A stretch of DNA of 64,000 nucleotides, taken from contig CM073321.1 of NCBI GenBank assembly GCA_037043015.1, forward strand, positions 10,486,001 to 10,550,000, read 5' to 3'. The stretch is from Bryum argenteum (lineage: Eukaryota > Streptophyta > Bryopsida > Bryales > Bryaceae). The position numbers and the translations under genes are program-made. Positions 1,149-33,158 of the stretch are shown here, in pieces. Under the pieces are notes generated by a model. That model ran no database searches and was not told the DNA's origin. It saw only the letters and a program-made list of their open reading frames with translations. How positions within the stretch are numbered: the stretch's first letter is position 1; each line of letters begins with the position of its first letter.

Positions 1149-1152
1149 AAAG

Positions 1153-1335: not shown

Positions 1336-1344
1336 AGAGGTTAG

Positions 1345-1352: not shown

Positions 1353-1480
1353 GGACTCTTATTCATTGTAAACCTAAGTCTTGGATCAATATATTTCTTT
1401 TGTAGTTTTTGCTTGTTTTGACAGCTAGACTCTTACACTTATACATTTTACAATTACTCTCTAGGTCGACTGGTTCGACA

Positions 1481-2981: not shown

Positions 2982-3695
2982 TTTTGAGTTTTGACATGGT
3001 ATAGTTGTATGAAATATATTGGACGCAATACTGAAGAATATATATTATATAGTGATATTATAGTGAAATCTTTGTTCTATGTTCTTCTTAAATGCAAGGG
3101 TTTCATGGTTCAATATTTCGGAGTGTCTCATAATTACCATGTAAATGTGAAAATGAGATGTCGATTTTTGCGAGTGTCATGAAAGAGTAATGGCATAATT
3201 TAGCATTTTCCGATGTAGATTAGATGTATTTAAATTAGACGGAAATGTGGATTGAGTACTCCGCTTGGTAGGGTCCGGTCAGGGAAGGGCGGTGCCGCCA
3301 ACCGCCGGGGTACCGCCACCGCCGGGGAACCGCCACCGCCGAACCGCCACCGCCGGGAACCGCCACCGCCGGGAACCGCGAGTTGCCGGTACCGCCACCG
3401 CGGGTACGGTAGAAGCGGCGCCGCGACTTCTTTGCCGCGGCTCGGGCCATGAGCATTCACCATGAGCGCGGGATCTTCTACGCCAGGGACGCCGCTCCTT
3501 GACTCTTCCTAGAAACAGCGATGTATAATTGGAAGATTCGTGTAGAAGAAAAGTTCGTGCTATGGTGCAATAGGACAAAGTAGGAACCGCCGATGCGCTC
3601 GGCAGGCAGTGTGCTTTTAGAAGAAGGAACAGAAAGTATTAGCAGAATGGGAGACGTACTTTTCATACTGTCAAGTTGTGCGAGGGAGTTTTTTG
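2982..3695. other. Non-coding spacer with GC-rich minisatellite
   Basis: AT-rich sequence to about 3240, then a GC-rich block holding a CCGCCAC-type minisatellite, then mixed sequence. Open frame 3593-3690 overlaps the possible 5' part of gene 1 but shows no known domain. Confidence 0.4.
3288..3412 (+). repeat. CCGCCACCGCCGGGAA minisatellite
   Basis: About six imperfect units built on ACCGCCACCGCCGGGA give a strongly GC-rich island of about 125 bp in otherwise AT-rich DNA. The several open frames crossing it on both strands (R/P/A or G/W/R-rich) are low-complexity products of the repeat. Confidence 0.85.
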
Positions 3696-6560: not shown

Positions 6561-6700
6561 TCTTAGGACAACGATACTTGAGACTAAAAACATTTATTTA
6601 TATTATGAGAGGCTTTATATTTGCTTTTATATTATGTTACTTTCTTGATTATCTCTTATGATTTTAGTGCGGTGTTATGTTTTGTTTCTTGATTTGTCAG
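6561..6700. other. Spacer between element A genes 1 and 2
   Basis: AT-rich, 140 bp. It ends in GATTTGTCAG directly before the gene 2 ATG, so the start may follow a 5'-leader intron. Confidence 0.4.
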
Positions 6701-9700
6701 ATGAGAATATCCGAGCTTCAATCTCTTCAAAATGAAGAAGACATCTCCCTTCAGTACGTTGAATCAAGTCCAGTTCCTAAAGAGGATGATAGCACACGCG
6801 TAGCACAAGATACTATCGAGCAGTTCTCCCCTGCAGCTTCTCCAGTTCCGCGTGATACTCCTATCGAAACCGAGCCTTCTCTCGAGGCTTTGCAAGATCC
6901 CGATGGACACGAGTCCTCATCGGATGACGAAGACTCTCCTTTGCCAGCGAGTGTTAACGTCGGCATCGTCCACAGCCACCCCATCTGCAAAACAAAGATC
7001 CTGATTGGAGTACGAACAAGATGCGCATGATTCACAAAAGTGATTCCATTGCAATCCTAAACAGGTTCCGTTACAAACCTGTGAATAAGTCTCGTATGCT
7101 CATTCCATTGTGCCGTTTGGTGTGTTACCCAAAAGTTCGGCCCATCTCGGAACAAGACGTCCGGAAACTCGAGAACGAGTTCAACAAAGGTTATCGAGAA
7201 GGAGATCGGGTAATGTATGTATCTCCATTCGATAGAAAAGGAAGAGAAAAAAAGGTTGATGCAGGAGATGGTGTGTGGGAGAATCCGCTATGGAGAGATG
7301 CCAATGAAGAGTTCGAGAAGACTTTGATGTCGGATCCTGATCTTCATCATCTCAGTGGCAAATACTTCTATGTATACGAAGGAAATCACCGTTTGACGGC
7401 GTGGATGCGTCATATACAGAGGTATCACCTGATGGATCCATCATGGTACATCTCAGTTGACTGCATCGTACTTGATGCTCGCGGTCAAAGCAATCTCCTT
7501 CTTGACGCCATGAATGACATCAATTGGTAAGTACTTCAAACAATATATTTCTTATTTAATTTCAATTCTTCGTAAGCTCGACGTATTCTCATATATAGGT
7601 CTACATGTCCTCTACATAGGTCTACCGAACATGACCACGTCGAAGACAGTTTAAGTGCAAAGCTCCAACGCATGCGAAAGTTTGGTAAGTTAAAACTTGA
7701 AGATTTCAAGGATCTCATTACCCCGGAGGATTACCAAATTTGCAAAAACGCTAAAGCAAAGAAAGAAACATGGTATCCTGTCACAGTGGACGTCTTTGTC
7801 AAGTTCTTGTACGCGGTAAGGCTACTTCATAAGTACTAAACTCTTCTATCTTGTACTCTTTTCATTATAGTTTCTTACTTCAACTTTTGTGCAATGTAGA
7901 GGAGGTTAGCGAAAGCTTCGGATCAGGCCGAGGCTACTTACTACGCCACTACTCCTAAAGAAAAGCAATTAGGATTTGGAGTTTGGACTGCTATGGATAA
8001 CGCCATCAAAGCCGAAATCAAATTGATCCGTGACAAACAGTTCAACAAGATGATTGCTGTGGCCAGTAATAAACTTGGGAAAGTATTCCCCAAAGAGGTA
8101 AACAATCTTCTCTACTTACTTTCTACTGAGACTCGATACTGTTATCGACTAATTATGAAATTAACTACTTCGATTTGTTCTATTTCCAGATCTATTCTCA
8201 CTACAACCAAAACCTGAAGCCCGATATGACAATCGAACGGTTGCACATGGTAGCCACCACCAATGTCCACTTCGATTTTTAGGGGAAGTGGCTCCAATGG
8301 TGGAATGCGCCAGATGATGTTCGTGGATTTGTCCACTTCCCAGTAGAGCGCCCTATGAAGGATAAAACATTGCTTGCCTTTTTGCATCGCGCTTCGCTTT
8401 GGGCTCAGGTATATTGTACTGTACAACTGTCATTACTGTATTCTTGTCATCGACTACCTACTTTTTCTAACGGGATCTACTTTATTGCAGTTACAACAAT
8501 CCCTCAAAAGTGAAATACAACAACTTGTAGAGGATGGCAAAATCCACATTGAGTGGTCGGATGCGGTACTAACGCCATCCGCGTATGTTGAGAAATGGAG
8601 AGTGCTTTTATGGGAAAAGGCCTTTAGCAACTACCTCGCTCAAAATGCCATCCCGAAGTTTATAAAAGGATCTGATATTCACAAGATTCGTGGTGGCAAG
8701 GTTACTATTAAATGGCTCTTATTCCGGTACGTATTTACTTAGCTTTTCATTCTCCTACTCAATTTGCGAAGTAACAAAATTTGTACTGCATACTACAGAT
8801 TGTCTTTCTAATATGTTTTCTCGACTGTAGGTACTTGAAACAAGAGCTTCTTAGAAAAGGAGCCTTGGCTTCATGGTCCATTCCCGTTGAGCTCGAGGAC
8901 ATAAACGTCTCAAATGATCCATCCAGCATCTTCTCCGTAGCCCAACAGAAACGGTTTTCCAACTCACAGTTGCTCACCGGTGGTTGGTTCCTTGAGTGCA
9001 ACGATAACTTTGTGCAGAAGGAAGAAAGACATCTGCTTCGCAACCTCAATTCAAACGCACCAGGCGATGCACCTATGGAGATCGATGACGATGACGATGA
9101 CGACGAAGACGTCTCCATTTTACCAAGCGCACCTGTCTCGCCCTCCGAACCTCCTTCACCCGTTGCACAGCCCAGAACCCGAGCTAACAGAAAGCGTCGG
9201 AACGGTGCAGCGGTGCCTGTAGTTGATCTTGAACAAGAACCCGATGAAATCGCTCCGCTCCATCAAGACATTACAGGTACAGCAGAAGCAAATTTGACGC
9301 AGGCTTCACATGGAGCGACTAACAATGCAGCACGACGCAGTCGACAATTGACTCAGGTTTTTGCAGGTGGTCTTACGAATGCGGAGTCCCCTCCTCAATC
9401 TTTCACAGTCGATCACAACTCCGGAAAGAAGTTTGCTTCACTCCCATTTCTTGAACCGAAACATGTTGGACAGTGCTTGTCTTCCGATATTACCATTTCT
9501 CTCCCAATGTACTTGGAGAAAGGGAATATCGGAGCTTCTGTTCAGAAGGCGGCTCATGAAACAAAAGACTGGGACACGCAAGTCATGGACATCATCAGCC
9601 ACATCAGAAAGGAGATATGTCTTCAATATTTTATTACTTAATTTTTTTCTGAAATTTACATTGGAACACATTGCTTACAACGTGGCTAACTTTTTGTGAA

Positions 9701-11016
9701 TTCTAAAGATTGGCAAGGACAGAAAGTACCCATGTAAGGAGATGGGCTCGAAACACCCGCATCCCGGCATTGATCTCATCTACGCAGACGTTCCCAAGAA
9801 CTTACCCGTGCCTGACGTGTCACCAGTCGAAATCCCTTCATGGAACAAGCGAGAGAAGAGCTACTTCGAGATTGTGTTCTTTTTTGCTTTCTACAACTTT
9901 ACAGACGAGGGTGCGATACTTGTAATGCATCCCAAGGACCGTCGAGTCGAGAAAGCTCTGGACGCCGAATCGAAGGCTTTTGATTTCCGAATGGTGCGAG
10001 ATTGGTGGGGATACAATCCCATGCCAATGGCGTCGACGAATCCTCACGTGAAAACGGTATGGTCTTCATTCTACATTCAAATCATCATTTATGAATATTT
10101 ACAACGGTTTCGTAAACTTCTGTCATGGATTGAATTTTGCAGACTCACAACTTCCACATCAAGGTGTTTGTTCGAAAGTCTTTTGCCACTAGATTCTCCA
10201 TAAGACAGGTTGCGAAAGAGTACGCAGGTGTGCCCATTCTTCCCGACGAGGAGGACCATGTCTTCAATTTTGCGAGCAATGACTCCATTCGTAAGAAGGA
10301 AGATGGTACTCCGTGGCGTGGCTCGCGAGAGAAGGACCCCTCCTTCATCCAATGTTTCATTGATTCTCTCACAGACGAGCGGGGAATCGTCTTTGACTGG
10401 AGCCCTAGTACAGGTTAGTTGTTGCTAATACCAACTTTCATTGAACTTATTCAATTCTGTAGTTCTGATGTTCGTTGCTGGTATGTAGGTGCTTCCGTGA
10501 TTGCCTGTGCGCGATCGAACCGTCATCTTATTGCTGTTGAAGCTGACGAAGAGATATTTGACGGACTTTTATCGACATACGTGGATGGTACCGCTTTTGA
10601 GGAAGAAAGTGGCGATTCGGATCTAGTTTATGACTACGACACTGACACTTCTGAACCGCTTCAGAAGAAGCAACGCCCAGCATTTTGTGCGTAATTATCT
10701 CTTACTCCCCCCCCCTTGTATTCTCACCTTCAGTGGCTAATAATTTATTGGTATTGACTTTTTCTATACTTTTAGGATCGCAGGTTCCAATCGACGCTTG
10801 ATTGGCGACGGAAGTCTCTACAGCAGCCCTCCGCAAACCTTCACCCTGCCATCTTATGCTGAGCGGATAGCCCAGGAATTTGTCGCTGCCCCTTCTCCCG
10901 TCTTATCGGACAGTAGTAGACGTAGACGCTTTAGCTCGAGAGTGCTTGCGTTTATAGACGATGAGGCTGATCAGTGTGACCAACACTTTAATGGTCGTTC
11001 ACCATCAGCTTCTTAG
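6701..11016 (+). pseudogene. Element A gene 2: ParB-like domain fused to DNA-methyltransferase-like domain
   Basis: Long split gene, about 1,170 residues. Proposed exons: 6701-7526, 7620-7815, 7900-8097, 8190-8408, 8491-8726, 8831-9611, 9709-10056, 10143-10413, 10489-10690, 10776-11016. Residues from about 7100 to 7700 resemble ParB/Srx domains: KVRPISEQDVRKLENEF, the GNHR box (YVYEGNHRLTAWMR), then a DAMNDIN...EHDHVEDSL segment like the ParB box after the fold. Exon 9709-10056 has DLIYADVP in the place of the DPPY catalytic motif of beta-class N4/N6 methyltransferases. Exons 10143-10690 give VFDWSPSTGAS and HLIAVEADEEIF, the AdoMet-binding motif I and its acidic ribose contact. The order (motif IV first, motif I last) is that of beta-class enzymes. 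A D/E-rich linker lies at about 9080-9110. Damage: frame change near 6960-6990, TAG at 8280-8282, and donor GT changed to GA after 9611. Element B carries the same gene. Domain calls rest on motif reading only. Confidence 0.75.
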
Positions 11017-11818: not shown

Positions 11819-11896
11819 CTCACCGCTCAAACTTTACCGCTCACCGCTCACCGCTCACCGCTCACCGCTCACCGCTCACCGCTCAACGCTCACACC
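11819..11896 (+). repeat. Terminal CACCGCT repeats of element A
   Basis: About nine tandem CACCGCT(C) heptamers (GTGAGCG on the other strand) mark the right end. Element B ends in CTCTACGCTC-type versions of the same motif, and the left end of B has it in inverted orientation (GGCGTGAGCGTAGAG). Confidence 0.8.
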
Positions 11897-12042
11897 GGTG
11901 GTTTCCCCGCTTGTAGGGGGACCCTGACTTGGTATTTTGTGAGCAAGGGCACGGATGTTACCTTACCACTTGGGCAAGGCCTCGGAAAAAGGCTAGACAA
12001 AGAACAAGTGTATTAAGCATATCCCCCGAGTATTCATTTCAG

Positions 12043-16739: not shown

Positions 16740-18558
16740 ACTGGGCAAGGAACCAGATCAGAATCCGGAGATATGGGAAAACCATGATAATCCCCGTGGA
16801 TAGTTGTATCACTCGAGAGAAAGTCAAACAAATACGAAACCAAGCTGGCACATGATGGGGCAAAGGACTCACTCAAGAACAAGAGGCCTTGGTGTTTTCC
16901 GCCGACCCAGATCTAATTCTGTTAGTAGAGATTCACTTGGCCAGTGTGGTCTCGCACGAAGAGACGCTCGATATCCCGCCAAGGTTTACCAGAGAAGTTT
17001 CCAAGGGAGTCACCATTGATAATACTCCGGCAACTAAGGCCTTGAGTCAACAAGTGGTGATGGTATGGACGCATAGATCTAAAGAACAGGTGGAGTTGGT
17101 TAACCTTGGTACCGAACAAGAGCCAAAGAATGTGAAGATTAACGCCGACGCACCCAACACTATCAAATAAGCTACCATAGCTCTTTTCAAAGAATATCAA
17201 GATATCTTTGTTGGGACGCATGAAGATTTGAAAGGTGTACCGAGAACTATAGCCAAATGAACCATCGACTTGATATCGAACGCACACCCGGTACTGCAGT
17301 GCTGATACGAATAAACCCTCGCTACGCTCCCAAGATCAAAACTAAGTTGAACAACTTACTTAGTGCCAAATTCATATCCCTGGTAGACTCAACACCATGG
17401 TTATCCCAAATGGTGATCATCCCCAAAAAGAACGGCGTACTACGAATTTGTGTAGACTTTTGCAAACTAAGTGCGGCAACTAAAAAGGATCACTATCCTT
17501 TACCTTACATGGAGAAAATCATTAATGAAGTAGCTGGACACGAAATGTACTCTTTCCTAGACTGTTATTTAAGTTACTACCAAGTCGCCATGGCAGACCA
17601 AGACAAGAACAAAACCACTTTTTCTACAGAGAGGGGGCCCTATCAATTCGAAAGAATGCCAGTTGAGGCTAAAAATGCACCAATGACATTTCAACGTGTC
17701 TTGGAATTGATTTTTCGCCCATATCTGAAGAAGTTCTTCCGTATCTATCTCAATTATGGAACCGTATACGGCCGCATGCAGGACCATGTTGGCCAGTTAC
17801 GACAGATTTTCCAAGCCTGCCGGGAAAACGGAGTAAGTTTGAATGCAGACAAATGCATGTTCATTTTTTTTGCCAGGGTCATCTTGGGATACATTTTTTG
17901 CAAGTATGGGAAGCTCCTAGACCCATCCAAGATCCAAGATATCCTTGACATGACCCTGCCCACAGATCGAAAGGGTGTCCAAAGGTTGCTTGGCATTTTG
18001 CAATTCAATAGGATGTACATCGAGAAGCTAGCACATCTTGCTGCCTCGATAGCCGCCAACAATCACGCAGGGTACTCCTACCCAAGGGATTGGACGCAGG
18101 CCGCGCAAACTACCCTAGACAAAATCAAACAGACTTATTCGGAAGCCCCAATACTACTCGCCCGAAACTAGGCCAAGCTATTTAACGTTCACACAGAAGC
18201 CTCGAAGATCGCCGTGGGAGTCATGTTAGCACTGAACGTCAACGACAAACATGATCAACCAGTGGCTTACGCTAGCAGATTGCAGAACTAAGCTGAACGC
18301 AACTACTCAACCACGGAAAGAGAAACACTAGCCATGGTCTACGCTGTCAAGAAATTTTGGCATTACCTGCTTCGAAACAAGTTTCGTTTCATAGTTGACC
18401 ACCATAGCTTCTCTTACTTAGTAAACCAACCATTGATCAATGGACGTGTAGATCGATGGATCATGATCCTCGCGGAATATGACTTTGAGGTAGTCTTTGT
18501 ACTAGGAAAGCGGCACATAGTGGCAGATTACATGTCTAGGGACACCAATACCACCGAG
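16740..18558 (+). pseudogene. Gypsy pol: reverse transcriptase and RNase H, first half
   Basis: Ty3/gypsy pol on the plus strand. RT motifs include LSQMVIIPKKNGVLRICVDF, YPLPYMEKIINEV and YSFLDCYLSYYQV. At about 17,744-17,757 the catalytic YxDD box reads YLNYG, so the enzyme is dead. The tether (DPSKIQDILD, RLLGILQFNRMYI) and RNase H follow (HTEASKIAVGVML, ERNYSTTERETLAMVYAVKKF, HHSFSYLVNQP, HIVADYMSRD). The frame is interrupted exactly at DTNTTE by element B. The reading frame resumes at 31,596 once one copy of the 10-bp target duplication is removed. The protease part upstream is missing or unrecognisable. Confidence 0.9.
18549..18558 (+). repeat. Target-site duplication, left, of element B
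   Basis: TACCACCGAG, identical to 31,586-31,595. Removing element B plus one copy joins the gypsy pol codons of DTNTTE to EGIDDSF in frame. Ten bases is within the 8-11 bp range of Mutator-like transposons, though no transposase is seen. Confidence 0.88.
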
Positions 18559-18570
18559 AGACGTTACTTG

Positions 18571-18585
18571 GGCGTGAGCGTAGAG
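18571..18585 (+). repeat. Left terminal inverted repeat core of element B
   Basis: GGCGTGAGCGTAGAG starts 12 bp inside the element. Its reverse complement is at 31,559-31,573, also 12 bp from the end. Confidence 0.85.
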
Positions 18586-18659
18586 CGGAGAAATTTAGAT
18601 TGGAGAGCAGTGGTGAGAACATTTTTTTGGAAAAAGTTTCTAAAAATTAAAAAAATCTA

Positions 18660-19390
18660 ATTTTATACAGAATATTCTGTTGAATATTCGAATATTCCTA
18701 ACTTATTACCGTGGATTTGGAAACCAAACCCGTGGAAATGAGGGAAACAAATCTGAAATTTGGCAAACTTCAACAACATTGGAAAGACATTGTGAGACCC
18801 TTATAGTGTGACATGAGTCAAACAATTTTGTGGATATAGATAATAATATAATTATTTTCACAATATTGTGAAATCTTGTCACACAACGTGAGATTCATAT
18901 TTCTTCTAAGTCACAACCATCATTGCCCAACATACTTAGAACAAAGACTCCTTCAGACAAATAATCAATGTGCCAAAGCTTCTCGTTTACTTTAGTTTCT
19001 TTAACAAACGTTGTGCGTTGAAAAATGAAAATTGGTTCTAACAGATGTGGATGGTTCAAAGGTTTAGATCTTTGACTTCTTCTTTTTCATAGATAGTACT
19101 CAAATTCTTTGCACAAATTTGGGTAACCCTTCTCCCTATTCAAAGACGTGAGAAGTTCACGTAGTTTAGTTTATAAGTTTTGTGTTTAGATTCAATTGGA
19201 ACATCAAGCTTACAAAAAATCTCGTGTTGATGTTGCACTCCGTGCAGAATGTATTGCTTTGTGTGTTTTGCTGGGCACGCATGTCCATTGCTAAGCCCCA
19301 TGGGCTTAGTGATCCTATTGAGAATACTATACCCACGTAAATACTTGAAAGAGTAGATGAGATTTCTCAAGCTTCAATAGTTTAATTCTT
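18660..19390. other. Element B left arm, AT-rich, no gene seen
   Basis: About 730 bp of AT-rich DNA. Early bases (18,660-18,760) have weak inverted similarity to the right ends of A and B. A minus-strand open frame at 19,140-19,370 shows no known domain. Confidence 0.4.
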
Positions 19391-19412
19391 TATACTTATC
19401 AAAGACTCATTC

Positions 19413-19622
19413 CAGCCCTATGGAGGGATACCATGTCTAGTATCTTCAAGGAGTTAGTAACTAGCTAGAAAATAGCATAGTCATAGTGTCCATCCTCGAA
19501 AGGGGAGAGTAGTATTGTGCCAATTTCCCCTTATTCGGTGGGCATCGGGTCATTAGTTTTACCTACAGACACTTCATTCACGCTGGCCCCTTACAAAGGG
19601 ACCGAAATTTCTATATATATAT
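19413..19622 (+). repeat. SINE fragment (3' part) in element B
   Basis: It matches the 3' two thirds of the SINE at 48,718-49,074: GGAGGGATACCATGTCTAGT, CTAGTTACTAG-like core, GTCCATCCTCGAAAGGGGA, AATTTCCCCTTATTCGGTGG, and a TCTATATATATA tail. The tRNA-related head is missing, so it is a truncated copy. Confidence 0.8.
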
Positions 19623-19779
19623 CAAATGCATCATCAACAACAAGTGGAACTTACAGACATACATTTGAAAGAAGTGAGGAAAGAAGTTTTAACCTTCTGG
19701 CATTTTTATTCAATTGATGACTTTCTTGATTGTATTCATCTTTTACGTTGAGAGTTCTTTTTCACAATTTTATTTTGGA

Positions 19780-20480
19780 GGGTAACTCAAAACATCCATG
19801 CAATCCCCTACATCTTCCAGCACTCTTTCATTGGTGCTCTCGTCTTCTACAACAGTGAGACATGCATTGGAAGAAGATAAAGAGGAAGTTTACTTTTCTA
19901 TGTAGTTGGCTTAATTCTACTTACTCGCAATATTGAGTTCTTGTCAAGCTCGTATGTAAGGAAAATAGGCAAAGCTATGCAACCTTTAAGGACTTGAAGC
20001 ATTCTTCATGCAACTCCAACAACAATATGAGTTAGTAAACACCCATGAAAACAAGGTAAGAAAATTAGTTATAAGCTTTTAGTATTCTACTTTATTAATA
20101 CAGTGTTTAAATAGTATTAATCATTTTTTTTTGGTACTGTATTTTTTTAACTCTTTTATTTTGGTAGGAGAGTAGGCATATCAATAGATGAAACCGCCTA
20201 GAACTATCGGCACTCTTTCATTGATAAATCCATTTTCAACGACAACTAAAACAAGTAAAAATGCACTTACACAAGGTAAAAATAAATACTCTAAGCTTTT
20301 AGAAATTCTGATTTTCTAAGTGATTTTCATGATACCACTTAATATTTACTTTGGAAGTTATTTTTTATTGACATTATCTTTGGGAGGATAATAAACACAC
20401 CTATGCGATTGCCATTACTCTACAATTGATAAATGCATCTCCAAGAACAACAAGAATGTTTGAAAATAATATGGACTAGC
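19780..20480 (+). repeat. Three diverged direct repeats in element B left arm
   Basis: Segments starting near 19,775, 20,160 and 20,375 share a pattern: TTTGGGAGG-type start, a CATGCAATCCC-like middle, CACTCTTTCATTGATAAATC, and an ACAACAAG-like end. They are strongly diverged and unevenly spaced. They read as an old tandem or dispersed repeat. Confidence 0.5.
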
Positions 20481-21235
20481 TAAGGAATACTGTGTGTAAA
20501 ACTATACAAATGATCCGGGCTCAACTCATCAAGAGTTATCCTGAGCCAGTGATCAATACTAGAGAAATTAAAGCAAGGGTTATCTCATATCAAATCCAAG
20601 TCGAGGCAGAAGATTTCTCCAGAATATACCTCATTTTGAGAAGATTCTTCACAAGGTCGTCCAATCCAGTGCCCTTCCATTTCCCCCATAACGTTATCCT
20701 ACCTCCTCAATTTGAAGGATAAATGAGGAGACTTGTGGCATTGAGAATCTGATCCCTGCCACTTGTGCTACCAGCACCACCAACACGAAGACCAGGATAG
20801 CAAGGAACAAGAAGTTCTGAATCAGCAATCGTTGCGTAACTGACACAGAGGCTTTTAACATATATCCAAATTGCAGCACTTTAAAAGTGCATGACCATAC
20901 ACAAGGTGATTTAGGGATCCGATGTGTGAATCACATTAGAGCCCTCAGTGAGCGTGAAGTTGAGCGTGAGCGTAAAGCAAAACATTAGAGTTCTTATGGC
21001 CAACTGGGTAAAATAAGCTGCCAATCTAGAATGCAAGGAATTATTGAGAGACCTACTCACCTCAAAGCAGAGCTTAGTGAGTCAGTGCGAGTCGACCGCT
21101 CTCCTACCTCAAATCAGCCAAATCAGATGACCCTAAACACAAAAAACCCGACAACTTAGTTTGTCAGAGACCTTGTACGTAAAAGAGGGAAAAAACAAAT
21201 CTTACTCAAACAATATAACTCTTGGGCAAGGTTGT
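20481..21235. other. Element B left arm, no recognisable gene
   Basis: An open frame at 20,492-20,722 (76 codons) has no known domain. The remainder is mixed sequence. Nothing else is supportable. Confidence 0.35.
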
Positions 21236-22240
21236 GAAATCGGGCTTGTTGAGGTGATTGGGGGGGGGTGGCAAAATGGGCGTACGAGTTGTCCCGGACG
21301 GGCCGGCATGCCTGCCCACCGTGATTGTAGGAGGTGTGTAATTTTTTGTGGGTAACAAACTTTGCAGTAAAAAGCCACGTAGGATGTGACGTGTAAGTCT
21401 ATCGTGGCGTTGGGGCGGGTGAAATTGTGTCAAGGCGAGTGAACTTTTGTCAAGGCGGGTGAACTTTTGAAAGGGCGGGTGACATAGAAGGCGGGGCAGG
21501 AGAGGCAGGGGCGGGTGACTGGGGGGCAGGGGCGGGTAACTTGGGGGTTGGTACCAGTTTTTTAATTTATTTTTTTTTCTCCTAATGAGTAGGGCCGGTG
21601 CAAAAAGGGTGGGTCGGGTGCAAAATGAGGTAGGGCGGGTGCAAAATGGGATAGGGCGAGTTCAAAATGGGGTAGGGCGGGTGCAGAAAGGTTAGGGCGG
21701 GTGCAAAATGGGGTAGGGCGGGCGAGTGAGGGGGGAGGGGGGCAAGTGACTCGGGCGGGGGGGGGAGGCGGGTACCAATTTATTTTATTTACTTTTTTTT
21801 TTTTTTAACTATCAATATAAGGGTGGGTTCCAGGTTCGCAAGGCGGATATCCTAGTGGTGGGCGGGTGCAAAGGGGCGGGTGTCTTGGGGGTAGGTAGGG
21901 GAGGAGAGGAGTGCACAAACTCTCCCTTCTCTTCTTTTTTCTTCTTCGTAAACTTGGATTTTTCATTAAAATAGCAAGGGCCCTCGGATTAGCATGTGCA
22001 AATCTAAACATTCTCCGACAATATTTGGGAAACCAAAATCCCGGAATTCATGGAAGAATGTTAGGATTTGCTGACTTCAAAAATACCCTTGCTTTGTTCA
22101 AAGAAGGAGAAGGGTGGGGGAGATGACGAAAGCTCTGGCAAACTTCTTTCCATGGCTCTTGGGAGGGTAAGGGCGGGTGCCATAGTGAATGGCGGATTTC
22201 CAAGGGCAGGGTGGGTGCCATTCGAGCAGGGCGGGTGAAT
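21236..22240 (+). repeat. G-rich minisatellite-like region
   Basis: Degenerate units of about 20-23 bp, GGGCGGGTGCAAAATGGGGT and variants, recur from 21,420 to 21,760 and more loosely over the rest. G-runs on the plus strand are dense, with four or more GGG tracts within 40 bases at many places, so G-quadruplex formation is plausible. A stretch at about 21,905-22,140 inside it looks non-repetitive. Open frames here are compositional. Confidence 0.8.
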
Positions 22241-22241
22241 T

Positions 22242-22242
<1 letters not shown>

Positions 22243-22282
<40 letters not shown>
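22243..22282 (+). repeat. Poly(T) run of 40
   Basis: Uninterrupted T tract directly after the G-rich minisatellite. On the minus strand it would be a poly(A) tail, but no retroelement body is recognisable next to it. Confidence 0.95.
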
Positions 22283-22284
<2 letters not shown>

Positions 22285-22736
22285 TTTTATTCCCTCCTTT
22301 CTCTTGGAACCTTTTCAACTTCCAAACCCCGCACTTTTTCAAATTTGAGCTACCACATCCCAGTTCCCCCTTTTATTCAAAATTTGAGCTACTACATGGC
22401 AAACCTACCTCCCCCTTAGTATTTGCTGTCAAAATTTATATCTCATACTAGTACCAAGGTGATGGCAAGCGTATAGCAAACCAATATATACCAGAATACC
22501 ATAAACAATAAATATTTGAAAGAGCTTGTTCATAATGGAGAATGCATCCTTATCAAATATGTATAAAACAAAAACATTCTTTGGTACTGCATCCAAATAT
22601 CTGAGTTGTTTTAAATACACAAGTATCTAATTTGTCTTAAATACATGTATATCTTGAACATAGAAGGAGAGAAATTGCAAAAAAATAAAATAAATTGTAA
22701 TTATTTTATTTATTTTGGTTTCACAAATACTTATGT

Positions 22737-22915
22737 CCAATGTCAAAACCCACCTTAACATCTACTTCATGAAAAACATCTCATGCTCTAAACTTCACAA
22801 CTAAGAGCTACCATCACTAAATTTCATGCCATAAACTCATACCTTCTTCAATAGATTTGCAATGTGAAGCATACAAACTAGACTTGATTTGAGACCCAAC
22901 CCAAGTGATTTCGTC
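22737..22915 (+). repeat. Direct repeat copy 1 (about 180 bp)
   Basis: It contains ATGTCAAAACCCACCTTAAC, CTCATGCTCTAAACTTCACA and CCAACCCAAGTGATTTCGT. It is repeated at 23,105-23,286 with few differences, 368 bp downstream. Confidence 0.9.
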
Positions 22916-23104
22916 CAAATCGGATATTCTATGAAGAAGTCATGGCCCTTCAAAGTCACAGTCCCTGACCACATTCGTCAACGAAACTGACACCCACTTG
23001 GTCACTTTCAATCATGAATGCCATGTAACCTCATTGATAGAATTATCTCATGATTTCCTCTCACAAAACACAACATCATAATCGAGGTGAGGTTTCAAAT
23101 TTGG

Positions 23105-23286
23105 TGCCCTATGTCAAAACCCACCTCAACATCTACTTCCATGAAAAACATCTCATGCTCTAAACTTTACAACTAAGAGCTACCATCACTAAATTTCATG
23201 CCATAAACTCATGCCTTCTTCAATGGGTTTGCAATGTGAACCATACAAACTAGACTTGATTTGAGATCCAACCCAAGTGATTTCGT
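23105..23286 (+). repeat. Direct repeat copy 2 (about 180 bp)
   Basis: Second copy of the 22,737-22,915 repeat. It ends at CAAGTGATTTCGT immediately upstream of the gene 1 exon of element B, so the duplication sits in the likely promoter region of that gene. Confidence 0.9.
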
Positions 23287-23469
23287 TCCCCTCCACGTTC
23301 TTGATCTCTGGGTGGAAAAAAATGTATTGGGAAACGACTGGGAAGTTGGAGGTGACCGAAGATGAGATAATCGCTTCGACGGACTTTCGCATTCCTCAGC
23401 AGGTATGTGTTTGTTCTCTTCTCATAATGTCAGTTGGTCCTCATTTAGAATCCTTGTACGGAATCGTCG

Positions 23470-25437
23470 TTTGGGATCCTCGTTTTTGATTGTGGTGTTA
23501 TCAACATTCGTCAACGAAACTGCTTGAGCTCTTCCAGCTTGAACAGCTGATGTAGGACCACGAATTCGGCAGCCTCGTAGAGTTTTGAAATCCGCACAGT
23601 CTTTGATCAGCACGCTTAGAACCTGCTCACCTCGGTAGCATTCGTCAACGAAACTGCCTTGCGGTACTCGTGTGGTGGGCATGTGGAAGATCGGTGTGGT
23701 TAGAATCTGATCGGAGCCCTGTAGAAGCCGGCTCTGGGATCCTCGTTTTTGACGCGCGAGTTTGAATGCATAGCCCCGTTAGCAAGCGCACTTTGAGCGA
23801 GCGGGGTTCGGACCCATACAGGCATCGCCAAAGCTTGCGCTCTCACGCATGATTCTGTCTTCGATCACGCGGTGAGGCCCAGCAAGTTCGGTAAGTTCAT
23901 GGTGGACGCTGTGTGCATCCAATTCGGGTACTCTGCCAGGGTGTATCAGTGATCGATCGCCAGAACACTAGGAGAAGCTTGGTCGGTTTTGTCAACGAAA
24001 CTGATATTCTATGAGCTCCAAAACTAGCATTGAACTGGATGGTGCATGCTTCAATTCTGCTCGACTGTCCGTGGTTGGTATCTTATTTTTTGAGGAGGAA
24101 AATTCCGCATTTGGGATCCTTGTTTTTGATTGTGGTGTTATCAACATTCGTCAACGAAACTGCTTGAGCTCTTCCAGCTTGAACAGCTGATGTAGGACCA
24201 CGAATTCGGCAGCCTCGTAGAGTTTTGAAATCCGCACAGTCTTTGATCAGCACGCTTAGAACCTGCTCACCTCGGTAGCATTCGTCAACGAAACTGCCTT
24301 GCGGTACTCGTGTGGTGGGCATGTGGAAGATCGGTGTGGTTAGAATCTGATCGGAGCCCTGTAGAAGCCGGCTCTGGGATCCTCGTTTTTGACGCGCGAG
24401 TTTGAATGCATAGCCCCGTTAGCAAGCGCACTTTGAGCGAGCGGGGTTCGGACCCATACAGGCATCGCCAAAGCTTGCGCTCTCACGCATGATTCTGTCT
24501 TCGATCACGCGGTGAGGCCCAGCAAGTTCGGTAAGTTCATGGTGGACGCTGTGTGCATCCAATTCGGGTACTCTGCCAGGGTGTATCAGTGATCGATCGC
24601 CAGAACACTAGGAGAAGCTTGGTCGGTTTTGTCAACGAAACTGATATTCTATGAGCTCCAAAACTAGCATTGAACTGGATGGTGCATGCTTCAATTCTGC
24701 TCGACTGTCCGTGGTTGGTATCTTATTTTTTGAGGAGGAAAATTCCGCATTTGGGATCCTTGTTTTTGATTGTGGTGTTATCAACATTCGTCAACGAAAC
24801 TGCTTGAGCTCTTCCAGCTTGAACAGCTGATGTAGGACCACGAATTCGGCAGCCTCGTAGAGTTTCAGAATCCGCACAGTCTTTGATCAGTACGCTTAGA
24901 ACCTGCTCACCTCGGTAGCATTCGTCAATGAAATTGCCTTGCGGTACCTGTGTGGTTAGAATGTGGAAGATCGATGTAGTTAGAATCTGATCGGAGCCCT
25001 GTAGAAGCCGGCTCTAGGATCCTTGTTTTTGACGCGCGAGTTTGAATGCATAGCCCGGTTAGCAAGCGCACTTCGAGCGAGCGGGGTTCGGACCCATACA
25101 GGCATCGCCAAAGCTCGCGTTCTCATGCACGATTCTGTTTTTGATCACGCGGTGAGGCCCAGCAAGTTTGGTAAGTTTGTGGTGGACGCATCCAATTCCA
25201 CCGCGTGATCAAAGACAGAATCCGCGTCCACCACGAAGTTTGGTAAGATCGTGGTGGTGCATCCAATTCGATGTGACTCTACCAAGGTGTATGAGTGATC
25301 GATCACCAGAAGACAAGGAGAAGCTCGGTCGGTTTTGTCAACGAAATTGATATTCTATGAGCTCCGAAACTGACATTGAATTGGATGGTGCCTGCTTCAA
25401 ATTGCTGATGGACTGTCCGCATTTGGTATCTTCTTTT
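23470..25437 (+). repeat. Three tandem 640-bp repeats
   Basis: Units begin at 23,470, 24,110 and 24,750 with TTTGGGATCC. Units 1 and 2 are the same length and appear almost identical throughout. Unit 3 is diverged and carries a local inverted duplication. A short sub-motif, TTCGTCAACGAAACTG, occurs several times per unit. The near identity of units 1 and 2 points to recent expansion. The array lies wholly inside the gene 1 intron. Confidence 0.95.
25131..25222. repeat. Inverted repeat within third 640-bp unit
   Basis: GATTCTGTTTTTGATCACGC GGTG (25,131-25,154) is repeated in reverse complement at 25,199-25,222 with 22 of 24 positions paired. The arms could form a hairpin with a 44-base loop. 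The two intact units lack this inversion. Confidence 0.85.
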
Positions 25438-26111
25438 TTGGTGGCATATTGTTATCAGGGACGTTATGTAGGAAATTATGAGTTGATTTAAATCTTCCGT
25501 CATTTCATTATGAACACCAATATTTCTTCTCTCATCTCATTGAGAATATTATACTGACGCCCTGAATTTTTATTGTGTTTGCTCATGTAGGAATCGATTG
25601 ACTTCGAGCCAGAGGACTCTTATGTGGAGTCTGAGAGCGATAGCGATTTGTCTAGCATGTGAGCTAGAGTCATAGACGTAGAGGATAAACGCACATTGGT
25701 TCGGGCACTTCCAGCTGCTACTTTAGATACTAACACCGACTTTGCTCAATCAACATTGACTGCTCCTGTGACTGTTGTTGAAGATCAACGGGCTACTTAC
25801 ATGAAGTGGTGGAGGGCGCGTAATAAGCGATTGCGCTTAGAAGCTCAAGCTTGAGCTAGACTTGGCCCACGACGTTCTAAGAGGATTGCGGCAAAGTCTA
25901 GCTAGAATAATACATTCTACTTTTGTGACAATATTCTCACATGATACATTATCAGACCACATGACACAGTTCATGTGGTCTTCAATTGTAATTTTTTGTA
26001 CAACTCTATTTCTATATGATTTATCATTATTGATTACTGAATTTTATCGGTACTCTTGCGGAGACCCCACTATCAAATGCCTCGTTGTCATCTGAGAGCG
26101 ATCCTATCGAC

Positions 26112-29100
26112 ATGGCAACAACTAAAGGTCGTGATGGGGGACAGCAGTGAGGTTCGCCATCGACTACCGCTCAGACTCATACCGCGCAACGCCCTCAACT
26201 CACCTCACAATCTCCCATAGTCGAAGATGAAGATGACGATATTCAAGAGATAATTTCGGATACACAGCCTTCGTGCGATAATGTCGATGTCGACGAAGGG
26301 AATACATTTATGGTAGCAGCGTCTCCAATTGTTAGATCTGCCGGGAAACTCCTTCTTTCCCAGATATTGTGGAGGTTGGGGTTGTTGAAATGCCAAGTCA
26401 TTTGGCTGAGATGGATCCTATGTGGAGCGCCGACGAGTTACGAGCTCAACAAGAGGGAAACTCTATCAAACCTGTCGAGAAATCTTGACTTCATATCCCC
26501 CTTTGTCGCCTCTTCCGTTACCCCAAGGTCCGTCCCATTATAGAAACAGATGTTTGCAAATTGGCAAACGAGTTTGTTAAAGGTTATCGAGAGGGCGATC
26601 GCGTTCTATATGTTTCTCGCTTTAGCAAGAACGGAAAGCAACGGTTGGTGAAGGACGATGATGCGGTTTGGAATAACCCTCATTGGAAAGCGGCAAATGA
26701 TCGGTTCAAAATCTCATTGCAAGCCGATCCGGACCTTTGCCAATTCATTGGCAAATACTTCTACGTCTATGAGGGGAATCATCGCGTCACTGCTTGGATG
26801 CGGTTCATTGAGCAAATGCGCAGAGATGATCCGGATTGGTATTTCTTTGTCGATTGCATTGTCCTTGACGGACGTGCGGAATACAAAGTACTAATCAACG
26901 CGATGAATGACATCAACTGATTAGTTTAATTTGTATGATATTCTTTGACTGTAGTGTATTATACACACTATATATATTTATGAAATCACTTCATGAACAG
27001 GTCCACAGAGCATGATCATGTAGAAGATAGCCTGCCATCGAGGTTGCATCGCATGCGCCAGTTTGGCAAGATGCCACTTGAAGAATGAAAACCCCTGATC
27101 TTTGCTGAGGACTAGAATTATTGTTACACTGCAAAAGATAAGCTGAGGCAAATTTGGTACTTTGTGACTAAAGACGTCTTCATCAAGTTCCTCTACGCGG
27201 TACGTCATTAATCATATCTTCTATATGAATTCATTTTCAACTAGGCTTTTTACGTTCTCTAACATGCGTTCTTTGATCGTCCAGAGGCAATGTGCTGAGG
27301 TCGTCGACGAAGCCCAAGCCCAGTAGTACGAGGACACTTCCATAAACGAGAGGACAACGCAAGGAGTTTGGACGGCAATGGACGAGGCTCTCAAGGCTGA
27401 GATTAAACAAATTTGACAAAAGGATTTCGACAAAATGCTTGCCATTGCTAATCCAGAGTTAGGAAAAGCATTTGAGCAAGAAGAATGAATTCTGTCGACA
27501 AAACTTAGTGTTTTCTCACGATCCCTTGTCGACACCCCTCTATTTAAATTTTTAATCTCTTTGTTGTATTTCGATGTAGATCAATCTTCATTATAGCCGT
27601 CAGAAGGATCCCAAGATGTCTCTGGAGCGCCTCCAGAAGGTCGCCACCACCAACGTTTCGAAGGAACTCAAGTGAAAACCATATGCCTTTTTGGTGGAAC
27701 AACACTCCGGCATTCCGACGTAGTGTTCGCTTTCCAGATCCGGTCGAGATGAAAGACAGGGCCTTGGAGGCATGGCTTGCTTGTGCAGCACTGTGGTCGC
27801 AGGTACTTAATACCCACTCAATCACATTCCTTACCATTATGTCCATACCAATTTATGATGTATTTTACTAACTTCCATCGTTGACCGCAGTTAGCGACGT
27901 AGGAGGTGGACAAGTTCTTCAAACAAGAGATTCCCCAAATCCCGAACCTTGACGCAATTTTGATGCCCGAAGAGTAAGTCGAAAAATGGCGACTTCTTTT
28001 ATGGGATAAGACTTTTGATGCTTACGTAGGGCCCAAAGCCAGCCCTAAGTTCCTTAAAGGCTCCCACATCGACAAGATTGGCGGGGGTGCTCAAACTAAG
28101 AAGCGATTGATGTTCAGGTTCGAGCACGCCGTTTTGCATTGTCTATTTTCTTATCATCAAATTCTTCCAAGTGATTCTAAGTGATTATACTCATTGTAGG
28201 TAAATCAAACAAGAGCTCATTGCTAAGGGTGGTCTCGCTACATTGGGCATTCCATTTGAGTTCCAAGTCCCGTATTTGAAGAAGAAATCGATGTCGATTT
28301 TTTCCAATGATCGGAGGCAGCGGTTCAAGATGGCTTTACTGTTGACTGGTGGTTAGTTTCTAGAGTCTAAAAACCCACCATGATCACAAGGAAGAGAAGC
28401 ATCTTGTGCAAATTAGCGGAATCGGTCGACGCCGCTCCTGTGGCACTACAGGTTGATGATAATGACGACGACTTCTGCATGCTTTCGGGTGCTCCACCAC
28501 CACCACCCCCCCCCCCCCCGTGGCTGGACCAAAAGGTAGAGGACATGCAGGTGGCAGCCGCAAACGTCACAAAAAAGAGCCTACCCCTGAGCCAGAGGAC
28601 GAAGGACAAGGAGAGGAGGTGGAGGAGCACGAAGAGAATGACGAAGACAATGAGGGAGAGCATGAAGATGTTCCCATTCTCGATGAGCTTGCAGGTCGTG
28701 CAGATTGAAATGTATGTAAGTTACCTTTTCCTTGTGTACTTTGTTAATTATCTAACATGTGCGCTTCTGTATACATTAAAGTTCAAAGAGAAGTTGTTAT
28801 GACACAAGCTTCCTAAGGGACGGTTGTCAACAACGGTGGGCGTGGTGTAAGAGGTCCAGCTGCCTCAGATAGGCAGGCAGTTCTGCCACAAAGGCATGCT
28901 CGAGGGTGGACACAAGCATCTAAGGGTGGGGTTTTGAATGTGGGATCTACTCCTCCATCGTCGTCAGCCGCCTGTGAATCCCCTCTGTCACATGGACCGA
29001 CGCAATCTAATGGACCCATGCGTCCCGTAGTTATTCCCAAAAATGTGGGTAGTACCTCATCTTCTCCTACAACTGTGACGCTCCCTATGTTCCTAGAAAA

Positions 29101-30563
29101 AGGAGACACGGCCGCCTTGGTTGAGCAGTCTACAAAGGGTGCAGGCTGGGTAGACGCTATTCAGGCTATGGTTCAACACATTAAGAAGGTAAATCCCTCT
29201 CTAACTATGGATTGCTTTCTTACTAAAGTTACTCTATTATGTTTATTGGTTTCCAAATACTTTGTGTCTAATCCACAGATTGAAAAGGGTAGGGACTATT
29301 CTTGCGAGAAGATGGAGGTTAAGCCCAAACATCCCGGGATTGACCTTATCTTTGCAGACGTTCCCGAGATTTTGCCCGTGCTTGGTGTCTCGCCGGACGT
29401 AGTTCCCGTATGGAACAAGCGTGCTTCGTATTACTTCGAGTCCATTTTTGTCTTCGCCTCATACCATTTAACTGACCTTGGGACTATCCTTATTATGCAC
29501 CCCAAGGACGTCAAAATGGACCGCATCCTCCGCGAACATGCTAGTATTTACAATTTCCGGCTTGTGCGAGAGTGATAAGCCTATAACTTCCTTCCTTTGG
29601 TTAAACCTGGTGCTACCGCAAGAGAGGTATACTTCGAATATTGCACTTGGTTTAATCTCTCATTTCAACATTACCTTCTCTTATTTCAAATTGCTTATTG
29701 CAGACCCATAACTTTACCATCAAGGTCTATGCTCGTAAGGACTTTGTGAAAATGTTCAATGTACGACAAGTGGCGCAAGCATACGCATGAGTCGCAATCA
29801 TACCTGACAAGTATGACATGGTCAGTAACTTTGCTGACGCGAGTTCCATTACCTACCGCACTAACGCGAAGCCGTGGCGCGGCTGACGTGAGAAGGATCC
29901 ATCGTTTTTGCAGTGCTTTGTGGATTGCCTCACGGACGATGGGAGAATTGTGTTTGACTTCAGCGCTAGTACCGGTAAAACTTCAAGTTCCCATTATAAG
30001 CAGTTTGCAAATTGATATTTTCAATACTCATGTGGATTTCCAAATGTGCAGGTGCTTCAATCATCGCATGTGCACGCTCCAATCGTCACCTCATTGCTTT
30101 TGAGGCAGATGAGGAAATTTTTGATGGGCTTTTGGCGACCTTCAAGCACCCTAAACCGTTGGAAGAAGAGAGTGGGGAATCAGCCTCTGGTGACGATTAC
30201 GACTCCGATGAACCGTATCTGAAGAAACCTCGCACTTATATTGGTGTGTACTCCATTCAATTCATTGACTTTTTGTGATTTCAAAGTCCGTACTACAATT
30301 AGAGCATTCACTGGTTATGATTATTTAGCTATGCAGGCATCTCAAGACACTTGACCCAAAACGCTCATCTCATCAATAGCCCACCTTCTACACTTGCTCT
30401 ACCCTCTTATGCGGAGCATGTTGCTCGGGCTTTCGTCGCGGCTCCAACTCCTCCTGTACCGAATGCTTCACGCTGACGCTTTAGAGCTGGTGTGCTTAGG
30501 TACATTGATTTAGAGGCAGATCAGTGTGACCACCATTTTAATGGTGCTTCACCTTCATCGTAG
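26112..30563 (+). pseudogene. Element B gene 2: ParB-like plus DNA-methyltransferase-like protein
   Basis: Second copy of the element A gene. Exons by comparison: 26,112-26,919, 27,001-27,199, 27,285-27,483, 27,580-27,802, 27,891-28,117, 28,200-29,188, 29,279-29,626, 29,704-29,974, 30,052-30,243, 30,337-30,563. Intron positions match those of A one for one. The ParB-like part keeps KVRPIIETDVCKLANEF and YVYEGNHRVTAWMR. The methyltransferase part keeps DLIFADVP (motif IV place) and VFDFSASTGAS with HLIAFEADEEIF (motif I). Many stops occur (for example after GGQQ in the first exon, and in exons 2, 3, 5 and 9), and donors are lost after 26,919 and 27,483, so it cannot make protein. The ParB-like and motif I regions are better conserved than the linkers, which argues that both copies descend from a functional gene. 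Confidence 0.75.
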
Positions 30564-31540
30564 TGTGTTTATTTTTTTTACTATTTCAGAGATGACTATG
30601 TAGGACCAACTCTCATGAGTTGCCTTACCCTACAACTCATTACTTTCATATGATTTACATTATTTTACATATATGTGTGTTTGCCAGTATCGAAACCTTC
30701 AATCGTATTGAACAATTTCAGTGTCCAATTCTGTACTCGATCTATATGTTGGATTTACTTGTCACACCCTACTATTTCAAATGACATTTAAAATTCTAAA
30801 ACGTATACAAGTTCTTATAGGTCACTGCTACTCTATATTTGTCAATGTCTATAGAAGCTTCTAGTTTTTCCCTATTAGCTCAGGATAGCTGCCTTGTGCA
30901 CAACGCGATGCTCAAACGAGCCCAATGGGGATCGAACCCGGACCTCCGCTATGCCATCATTATGTCTAAACCGTCCACTACATTAAATTAAACGATGAGA
31001 CAGTTTCTATTACTGAAAATTGAATTATATATCTTATTGTTATTTATATTTTTTCCTTTATCAATATTGTTTCACAACATGCGCAGTATTCCTCGCCGGG
31101 CTTGTGTGAGCAGCGCGTTACACAAGAGGCAACTATCTAAGGATGTAGTATAGATCTCGAGGGTTCTTCGCTTTCGTTGAATTTTTGTTGTATTTTCATG
31201 ATGGCGTCAGCCCTAAACACTAAACCCAAAAACAATTTTTAGAATTACCTAAAATATATGTTCAATTTAACCTTTAAATAGTCATGCCTCCAATTTACAC
31301 GTTCATCAATATAATGACATCAGCCCTACTTTCAATATATTCACATAAAATCTTCAAGACAATACAAATGAAATATTTTTGGGAGGTGGGACCCACATTT
31401 AAAGAAGACCCAACACCACGGAATTAGGGACCTTAAACCCTAAAAATAGACATTTTAAGATAGTACAGTACAAAATTAAGTGGTAATAGGGTACTTTACT
31501 TTGAAAAAAATTGTTATAAAATAGTCAAAATTGTTCCGTC
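30564..31540 (+). other. Element B right subterminal region
   Basis: No gene. It contains a tRNA-like block (30,875-30,955), two copies of a GTCAGCCCTA-type motif (near 31,204 and 31,317) and AT-rich DNA. The order matches element A. Confidence 0.6.
30875..30955 (-). other. tRNA-like conserved block of element B
   Basis: On the minus strand, GGTTCGATCC (30,929-30,938) is a canonical Pol III box B, and a possible box A (GTGGACGGTTTAGAC) lies about 40 bases upstream on that strand. The part shared with element A is GCTCGTTTGAGC and GCAGCTATCCTGAGCTA. No full cloverleaf is drawn with confidence. Confidence 0.5.
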
Positions 31541-31558
31541 ACCGCTCTACGCTCTACC

Positions 31559-31573
31559 CTCTACGCTCACGCC
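31559..31573 (-). repeat. Right terminal inverted repeat core of element B
   Basis: CTCTACGCTCACGCC, reverse complement of the left core at 18,571-18,585. CTCTACGCTC-type repeats extend inward to about 31,540. Confidence 0.85.
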
Positions 31574-31585
31574 TCTACGCTCCCC

Positions 31586-31595
31586 TACCACCGAG
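31586..31595 (+). repeat. Target-site duplication, right, of element B
   Basis: TACCACCGAG, identical to 18,549-18,558. Confidence 0.88.
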
Positions 31596-33158
31596 GAAGG
31601 CATAGACGATTCTTTTAATGAACCATATATCCAAGCTGCCTCGTTGGACGACAGCCTTGCCACCACGAAAACCCAAAACGATTGGAGACAAGATATCATG
31701 GCCTACTTAGTTCAGGGCATCGTCCCCAGAGGACTAGCGGGCACACAAAAAATCAATTTTGTGCGAATCACGTTGTCATACACCGTGGTTGACGGCAGAC
31801 TGTATCGCAAAGGGGCTGATATCAAGATCAGACTCTGTGTACCTACAAAGGATACAGATCATCGCTACCCTCCACGATGGCCCCGCAGGCGAACACTAGG
31901 GACCTGATACTACTATTAAAAAGATACTTGCTTCCAAATATTGGTGGCCGACAGTACACAAGGATGTATTTGCATATATCAAAAATTGCCACGCTTGCCA
32001 AGTTGCCACCACCAATTTCCAACATCAAGGAAAGGTACCACTCAACCCATAACGCCATTGGGACCATTTTAGCGGTGGGGACTAGATTTTGTAAGGCCAA
32101 TGAAACCAACAACCAAACAAGGATACATATACATCCTTGTTGCCACGGATTACACCATCAAGTAGATAGAGGCTAAGCCATTACGCAACAACACCGCCAT
32201 GGTAATAGCCACATTCCTCTATCAGAACATCATTACTCGTTTTGGATGTCCCTTGGAAATCGTCTCAGATCAAGGCACGCATTTTGTGAATGCAATCATC
32301 GGGGATCTCATGGATAACCACCTCATCAAGCATAGAACAAGCACAGTATATTACCCCCAAGGAAACGGCCAGGCGGAATCCACAAACAAAACTATCCTTA
32401 CAATGCTGCACAAGTTTGTGATCACTACCCAGGTGGACCGAGATGACTGCTTGCCCACAGCATTGTGGTCCTAGAAGGTGGCGACTAAAGCAGCCACTCA
32501 AGTCAGCCCTTTTGAGTTAGTTTGTGGGACCCAGCCCTTGTTACCAACGGAATACATTGTTCCCACATTTAAATCCATGCAGCCACGGGACTACCAACCT
32601 TATCACGTTTTATCAGCCCGTGTGGAAGATCTTCACAGGCTCGAGGAATTCCAAGGAGACGCAAAGATGAACATCTTACAAAGACAGGAACTGAGCGCAG
32701 AATATTTCCAAGGCTCTAAACCCCCCTCGAATATTCCAAAAAGGTGATCAAGTACTATGGTGTCTAAGAGATCCAAAAATTCAGAAATCCAAATTGGGTG
32801 CAATTAGCTTTGCCAAACATTACGGTTCTCGTGGTAAACAGCAATAACTACAATGCCCACGCAACCATCATCAACACGATAAAACTCAAGAAGTATCATA
32901 CGAATACCCCCAACCAACATACATCAGTATGCTTAGGACAGCTGCAAAACCTCCAGTCCACAGAGGCGCAGGTGCATCACAGACTCCACAGATGCTAGGG
33001 AAATCGGCCTTCCGTTAGTATATCTAAGTCATGTCCAAGTAGTCCACAACACCGGCCGCAACAAGAGGTACAACTATCATCACCACGGAAATGCGGTCAT
33101 CATGGTAGATGAGGGGAACTCCATTGAATTACCCACGCTAGCCATGATAGACACTTAA
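31596..33158 (+). pseudogene. Gypsy pol second half: integrase
   Basis: Continuation of the pol at 16,740-18,558. After RRLYRKGADI-type lead-in (VVDGRLYRKGAD), the zinc-binding HHCC part is readable in a shifted frame (LHDGPAGEH, YWWPTVHKDVFAYIKNCHAC). The catalytic core follows: VATDYTIK (first Asp), SDQGTHFVNAIIGD (second Asp) and PQGNGQAESTNKTI (Glu), then ALWS-stop-KVATKAATQVSPFELVCG. Several frame changes and stops show decay. The likely end is the TAA at 33,156. Confidence 0.88.

Follow-up and report, generated by a model that had tools for sequence, protein, structure and literature searches.

The window analysed here, a 64,000-nucleotide stretch of the Bryum argenteum genome (contig CM073321.1, hereafter C1, positions 10486001-10550000; genome size 258.8 Mb), holds a terminal inverted repeat (TIR) transposon of 13,027 bp on the forward strand (18559..31585). 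It carries one gene of about 12 exons, broken in this copy, whose product joins ParB-like and beta-class-methyltransferase-like domains, and the first intron of this gene contains an array of palindromes, CAGTTTCGT-NN-ACGAAACTG, concentrated genome-wide in elements with the same type of gene (clade A). A second, distant ParB-methyltransferase element (clade B) occupies approximately 3.7-11.9 kb, 7 kb to the left of the first, and carries another palindrome at the corresponding position; both arrays and the second element are new to this analysis. The association of gene and first-intron array, the clade-specific sites and the selection on the protein are suggestive of a protein that locates the element encoding it. 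By analogy with known systems, it may be a self-targeting regulator, parS-like in the layout of its sites and VANC-like in role; we infer its binding and function, and consider this reading evenly poised.

Ten sites of the clade A palindrome type lie on the forward strand of the window within 22970..25349 (starts at 22970, 23503, 23637, 23984, 24143, 24277, 24624, 24783, 24917 and 25330), nine of them between exon 1 and exon 2. Written out, the palindrome reads CAGTTTCGTNNACGAAACTG; nine window sites match 14-16 of its 18 arm bases and the one at 24917 matches 12, the left arm being degenerate in this copy, while sister copies carry the fuller form. A repeat search of the window returned one 19-mer present nine times, and the 19-mer core TTYGTCAAYGAAAYTG was counted ten times, always within 22974-25349, against 0.02 expected. 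Across the genome, the exact 16-mer TTCGTCAACGAAACTG occurs 91 times, and its reversed control never. Among the matches listed, a clade A gene exon follows within 16 kb downstream on the same strand at 76 of the 91 sites, no site has a clade A exon on the opposite strand, and none lies upstream of a clade B exon; 12 of the remaining 15 have a 5' terminus of the element upstream.

The palindromic character was assessed on a single strand, the gene strand, where only the right arm served to select the sites. Over 25 non-redundant contexts, the left arm matched on average at 5.8 of 9 positions and nine contexts reached at least 7; among the 37 usable decoys of 40, the highest mean was 3.75 and at most one context reached that level. 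When one mismatch is allowed, 226 genome sites fit the palindrome AGTTTCGTNNACGAAACT, compared with 17 for a control palindrome. Its placement was evaluated on 50 listed sites of the 226, all exact: 34 are no more than 10 kb away from a listed clade A gene (0.6% being expected at random, with the sizes of two small contigs approximated), 39 lie within 20 kb of a listed terminus, and none is near clade B. Thirty of the 50 fall inside paired units, defined by both termini on one strand within 40 kb, which amount to 0.3% of the genome.

In the clade B element, 13 sites resembling GCTCCCTCGAGGGAGC are arranged on the forward strand at 4134..6042, in an approximately 136-bp tandem repeat of the first intron; all match at 13 or more of 16 positions and five are perfect. 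At a threshold of 12 of 16, the window contains 14 such sites, whereas 297 shuffled half-site palindromes average 2.0 and never exceed 10. The sites of these elements occupy the first intron or the stretch immediately before exon 1, positions typical of regulatory sites; a host factor could thus be using them as a promoter or enhancer, the protein having a role unrelated to them. We consider this improbable: the exact sites are concentrated in these elements, and the other clade has a different palindrome at the same place.

The coding sequence provides a separate line of evidence. The best 150 of 1,102 candidates for the ParB-like exon divide into 52 at 80-100% identity (clade A) and 98 at 62-69% (clade B), and the best 150 of 944 for the methyltransferase exon into 52 at 77% or more and 98 at 63-69%. 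Over 24 clade A pairs, the ratio of nonsynonymous to synonymous substitution rates (dN/dS) in a 143-codon ParB core ranged from 0.026 to 0.164, with 20 pairs at 0.03-0.1 and dS at 0.10-0.45. Between the clades, the proportions of nonsynonymous (pN) and synonymous (pS) differences in the ParB exon were 0.185-0.199 and 0.88-0.99, and the methyltransferase exon had a dN of 0.23 with saturated dS. Within clade B, the window copy gave a pN of 0.083 and a pS of 0.742 against copy L069 (ParB exon), and a dN of 0.239 and a dS of 1.23 against copy L090 (methyltransferase exon). Judged by these substitution patterns, namely the low dN/dS within clade A and the low pN relative to pS between clades, the protein is kept under purifying selection during multiplication of the elements.

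The original prediction had left the gene as either cargo or part of a mobility or self-methylation system, and had named gene copies always lying outside TIR-bounded units as evidence against it. That is not what is seen, the ParB or methyltransferase exon being present in at least 28 of 35 paired units among the matches listed. Neutral cargo was rejected on the strength of this recurrence and of the purifying selection. The prokaryotic type of the domains would suit a captured host or bacterial gene without a role for the element, an explanation already largely refuted and by now very remote: selection acts across copies and clades, and the gene is coupled with the array and the ends. What stands of the alternative is a self-directed system in outline, as the palindrome arrays indicate; actual methylation is doubtful in view of motif IV.

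The fold search assigned the first domain to the ParB/sulfiredoxin (Srx) fold, a result counted as new here and accompanied by a weak match to phrog_1033. The second domain matched PF01555 (E 3.5e-4, below the gathering cut-off) and phrog_3008 (E 1.8e-5), the clade B match covering positions 48-217 of the PF01555 profile; the ParB-like and beta-class methyltransferase-like domains of the original prediction are thus supported. An active beta-class DNA methyltransferase has a motif IV of the form [DNS]PP[YFW]. The copies read do not conform to it: those of clade A have ADVPEN, those of clade B either ADVPEN or ADVPKN, and the glycine motif reads DFSASTG or DWSPSTG. Because motif IV is altered in both clades, the methyltransferase-like domain is likely a conserved pseudo-enzyme, a further point new here, as far as its sequence can tell. 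An active methylase that places N4-methylcytosine or N6-methyladenine on its own element as a mark, the proposal made for brown-algal Sola1, would accord with the beta-class domain order and the PF01555 and PHROG matches, and the idea has been published for Ectocarpus (PMC12477816). The motif IV of the best-kept copies of both clades, together with the glycine motif, leaves it only a slight probability.

Other searches added little to these assignments. Against Pfam, the ParB exons hit no ParB N-domain family, and a single match among 81 members (PF18064, ParB C-terminal, E 0.2) was taken as chance. A PDB sequence-profile search gave no match; in NCBIfam the ParB exon had none and the methyltransferase two sub-threshold ones. 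Whole-protein homologue searches with a spliced model of 1,089 amino acids found none, and 89 pattern stretches in viral contigs included no relative. The exon profile A1 matched 209 proteins, of which 120 were listed, all near exon length owing to the length rule of the search.

Transposon genes combining ParB and methyltransferase are already known from algae. In Ectocarpus, the large DNA transposon Sola1-1_Ec32 has one gene, coding for 1,104 amino acids, that likewise joins a ParB-like to an N4-cytosine/N6-adenine methyltransferase domain, and self-modification has been proposed for it (PMC12477816). It is a Sola1 element of a brown alga, with its transposase on the opposite strand; the moss elements differ in residing in a plant, making 10-bp duplications, having an altered motif IV and carrying palindrome arrays, of which the available part of that report makes no mention. 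The same part names no target sites for the ParB-methyltransferase proteins, whose suggested role is to bind the element that carries them and to modify it (PMC12477816). In the moss family, a discrete palindrome array accompanies the gene, and a second clade has another palindrome, so that recognition, specificity switching and the need for catalysis are directly testable. Among the top matches by title and abstract, in a search with subscription literature mostly outside it, no further paper on such a family or such arrays was found, and the accessible portion of an article on adenine methylation holds nothing on moss (PMC12695648).

The likeness proposed in role is to VANC of Arabidopsis VANDAL21, an anti-silencing factor, in a group of related VANDAL elements with differing motif arrays (PMC5735166; PMC10398659). 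The shared traits are a transposon gene product acting on its own family and clade-specific short motifs in noncoding tandem repeats. Clade-specific noncoding motif arrays are likewise found here, that of clade B in one element only. The VANC21 target, YAGTATTAY in the same sources, is unlike the palindrome here. The likeness in layout is to the ParB-parS pair, with which the elements have in common the ParB N-domain fold and clustered palindromic cis sites beside the gene. Bacterial parS is TGTTTCACGTGAAACA, and both sites contain GTTTC...GAAAC, at a spacing of 6 bases here and 4 in parS. They differ from the bacterial pair in belonging to a eukaryotic transposon and in the methyltransferase-like domain of the same protein, with neither ParA nor a helix-turn-helix shown.

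As a self-targeting regulator, the protein would recognise the palindromes clustered in the first intron of its own element and might load or spread there via its ParB-like nucleotide-binding domain, thereby keeping the element from silencing or marking it. The methyltransferase-like domain would more likely serve as a DNA- or chromatin-binding platform than as an active methylase and, with a palindrome proper to each subfamily, each protein would act on its own kin. More tentatively, and with more doubt than confidence, we suggest that a eukaryotic transposon lineage may have made a self-recognition system out of a prokaryotic ParB-parS-like pair, in which a ParB-fold protein with a conserved pseudo-methyltransferase targets clade-specific first-intron arrays and escapes silencing. 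If true, VANC would have an independent counterpart here, in which the sites and the protein that reads them diverge jointly from clade to clade; if the protein protects the element, the anti-silencing route would be built from bacterial plasmid-partition parts.

Several observations weigh against a self-targeting regulator. Foldseek gave no match at E ≤0.001. The typical ParB motif is ENxxR, and the corresponding position reads NDINW by eye. The known DNA-contacting part of ParB is the helix-turn-helix after the N-domain, which would, by sequence position, fall in later exons of the gene, beyond the fold-searched domain. As to the sites, those in the window are embedded in 640-bp tandem repeats and have a degenerate left arm, shuffled half-site palindromes reach up to five sites (mean 0.33 over 300) against the nine seen, and 16 of the 50 exact palindromes are more than 10 kb from any listed clade A gene. 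The clade B palindrome comes from a single element and sits within approximately 136-bp tandem repeats, where its conservation is 0.93 against 0.84 for the rest of the repeat unit and other 16-bp stretches reach 0.966. Finally, no transposase was found, the Pfam search covering 53 of the 75 unit frames and the PF10551 search the 35 paired units.

The boundaries of the window unit are exact. A perfect 10-bp target-site duplication, TACCACCGAG, flanks it at 18549..18558 and 31586..31595 and occurs nowhere else in the window on either strand. Comparison of the first 29 bases of both ends showed positions 13-27 to be identical with no mismatch, placing inverted cores of 15 bp at 12 bp from each end (18571..18585 on the forward and 31559..31573 on the reverse strand); in the commonest family ends the core is 17 bp. 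Tandem CGCTCTA heptamers, varying in number among copies, lie subterminally at 31543..31582 (forward strand). Joining the flanks with one duplicate restores an open, stop-free gypsy pol frame; together, 17224-18548 and 31596-31900 hold a gypsy reverse transcriptase (PF00078, E 3.2e-16) and the RNase H-to-integrase stretch split by the unit. The duplication, the inverted cores and the restored frame had all been anticipated from the sequence of this stretch.

Further copies were recovered by a genome search with both TIRs and the gene exons, and in those with ends read homology starts and stops at identical bases; chance is excluded for the unit ends because the DNA matches of other copies stop at the same termini. 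The whole-element search gave 33 matching pieces (best 12 of 4,298 candidates scored), and 40 places each were scored for the 302-bp 5' end (among 490 candidates) and the 336-bp 3' end (among 109). With up to two mismatches, the 5' terminus pattern GGACGTTACTTGGGCGTGAGCG is present at 80 genome places and the 3' pattern GCTCACGCCTCTACATTCCCC at 141, each against none for its reversed control. The paired units number at least 35, with 100 of the 141 3' termini used, and span 11.7-38.7 kb. Eleven measure 15.8-17.9 kb, among them C2:34499471-34515493 and C1:43583667-43599621, and nested insertions probably account for the longer units. Of 13 units examined, nine have duplications perfect over 10 bp, one has one mismatch, one has two, and two have none. 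Duplications at insertions and inverted terminal repeats common to copies are those of a TIR DNA transposon.

Mutator-like elements (MULEs) make duplications of 9-11 bp; those of plants have 10-bp duplications and ends starting with GG and finishing with CC, and carry extra genes. The moss family shares these three features, and its duplication length and end bases point to a Mutator-type DNA transposon family. It differs in that the TIR homology is confined to a core of 15-17 bp located 12 bp inside the ends, and in that no MULE transposase domain was found in the window unit or in the 35 paired units, PF10551 occurring at 52 genome places and never inside these. A PF03108 search had no match anywhere, controls included, and is uninformative. 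Sola1 transposons have a Sola transposase and 4-bp duplications; the duplications here are of 10 bp (no search for a Sola transposase was made).

The Pfam scan of 53 of the 75 stop-to-stop frames of at least 60 amino acids recognised no other gene in the 13-kb unit, and gave only stray matches (E 0.027-0.32) taken as chance. The ParB-methyltransferase protein might also be part of the transposition machinery: by binding either the palindromes, which would act as an internal enhancer, or the heptamers near the ends, it would help a transposase made elsewhere. Being the sole gene recognised, its recurrence in paired units, the purifying selection on it and the heptamer arrays at the ends all fit such a role. 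We nonetheless find it unlikely, given that the protein contains no transposase-like domain found so far, the palindromes are far from the ends, and 7 of the 35 paired units have no gene copy among the matches listed.

The gene is a single split one, as the original prediction had proposed. The model spliced from copy L013 comprises 11 exons bounded by GT-AG; an extra small ATG exon upstream (exon 1, 23322..23402, donor GTATGT) is present in four other loci. Most exons of the window copy, all on the forward strand, have stops or breaks. Exon 2 (25591..25902, end uncertain) encodes an acidic and then basic N-terminal region with two in-frame stops, and the ParB-like exon (26390..26917), with a GNHR motif, is interrupted by one stop and by a short gap close to where it begins. 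Five middle exons follow, at 27002..27199 and 27285..27482 (two stops each), 27580..27802 (frame broken), 27903..28115 (one stop, start not matched) and 28204..28709 (broken, end approximate). The methyltransferase-like exons are at 29288..29626 (two stops, motif IV position reading ADVPEI), 29704..29976 (two stops, up to motif I, DFSASTG) and 30054..30242 (after motif I), and the last exon, 30336..30563, includes the stop codon and one internal stop. Upstream of the gene, the unit contains a G-rich minisatellite at 21225-21749 with strong GC skew (up to 0.53), the first part of which (21225-21482, 259 bp) is 84% alike in an insertion interrupting the clade B copy L069.

The clade B gene of the window (3744..11010, forward strand) has the same exon order and is nearly intact, with one stop among the exons compared. 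Its exons are near 3744-3947, 6270-6545, 6976-7527, 7621-7815, 7900-8097, 8190-8408 (with the stop), 8491-8724, 8832-~9610, 9721-10029, 10143-10415, 10491-10676 and 10783-11010. The 3' end of the element (11820..11908, forward strand), with GCTCACC heptamers and the terminus ...CTCACACCGGTGGTTTCCCC, is of the same kind as that of clade A. Its left end was not found: positions 1-6000 contain no perfect match to the duplication and one match with one mismatch at 3752, inside an exon. Among the matches listed, 27 of 52 clade A methyltransferase exons are followed on the same strand by a 3' terminus no more than 4 kb downstream, versus 5 of 98 in clade B; for a 5' terminus at up to 25 kb, the counts are 23 of 52 and 0 of 98. 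Either the ends of clade B differ from those of clade A or they lie beyond the matches listed.

Some minor features of the family and the window may be added. On C1, the 44.1-Mb contig of the window, ParB-like exons (best 150 of 1,102) have a density of 1.52 per Mb, against 0.29-0.53 on six other contigs; C1 may be a sex chromosome, or one rich in repeats for another reason. One variant of the 5' terminus, GGACGTTACTGTGGCGTGAGCG, recurs in identical form at eight places, C1:4832149, C1:37688498, C3:143289, C4:17804018, C5:18099526, C6:124229, C6:3981152 and C9:15693673, with no 3' terminus or methyltransferase exon within 60 kb downstream among the matches listed; they perhaps represent another subfamily, gene-free or diverged. 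To the left of the clade B gene, 2250-2900 includes acidic exon-like stretches, the scanned one without a Pfam match, and 1-1140 reads by eye as integrase and chromodomain-like sequence of another gypsy-type element. Two copies of one open frame on the reverse strand (13748-14599 and 38800-39996), with weak DUF6505 matches (E 0.0036 and 0.014), are probably gag-like parts of one retroelement family, and a Copia-type Pol_BBD fragment (PF22936, E 4.3e-18) is located at 55463-56089.

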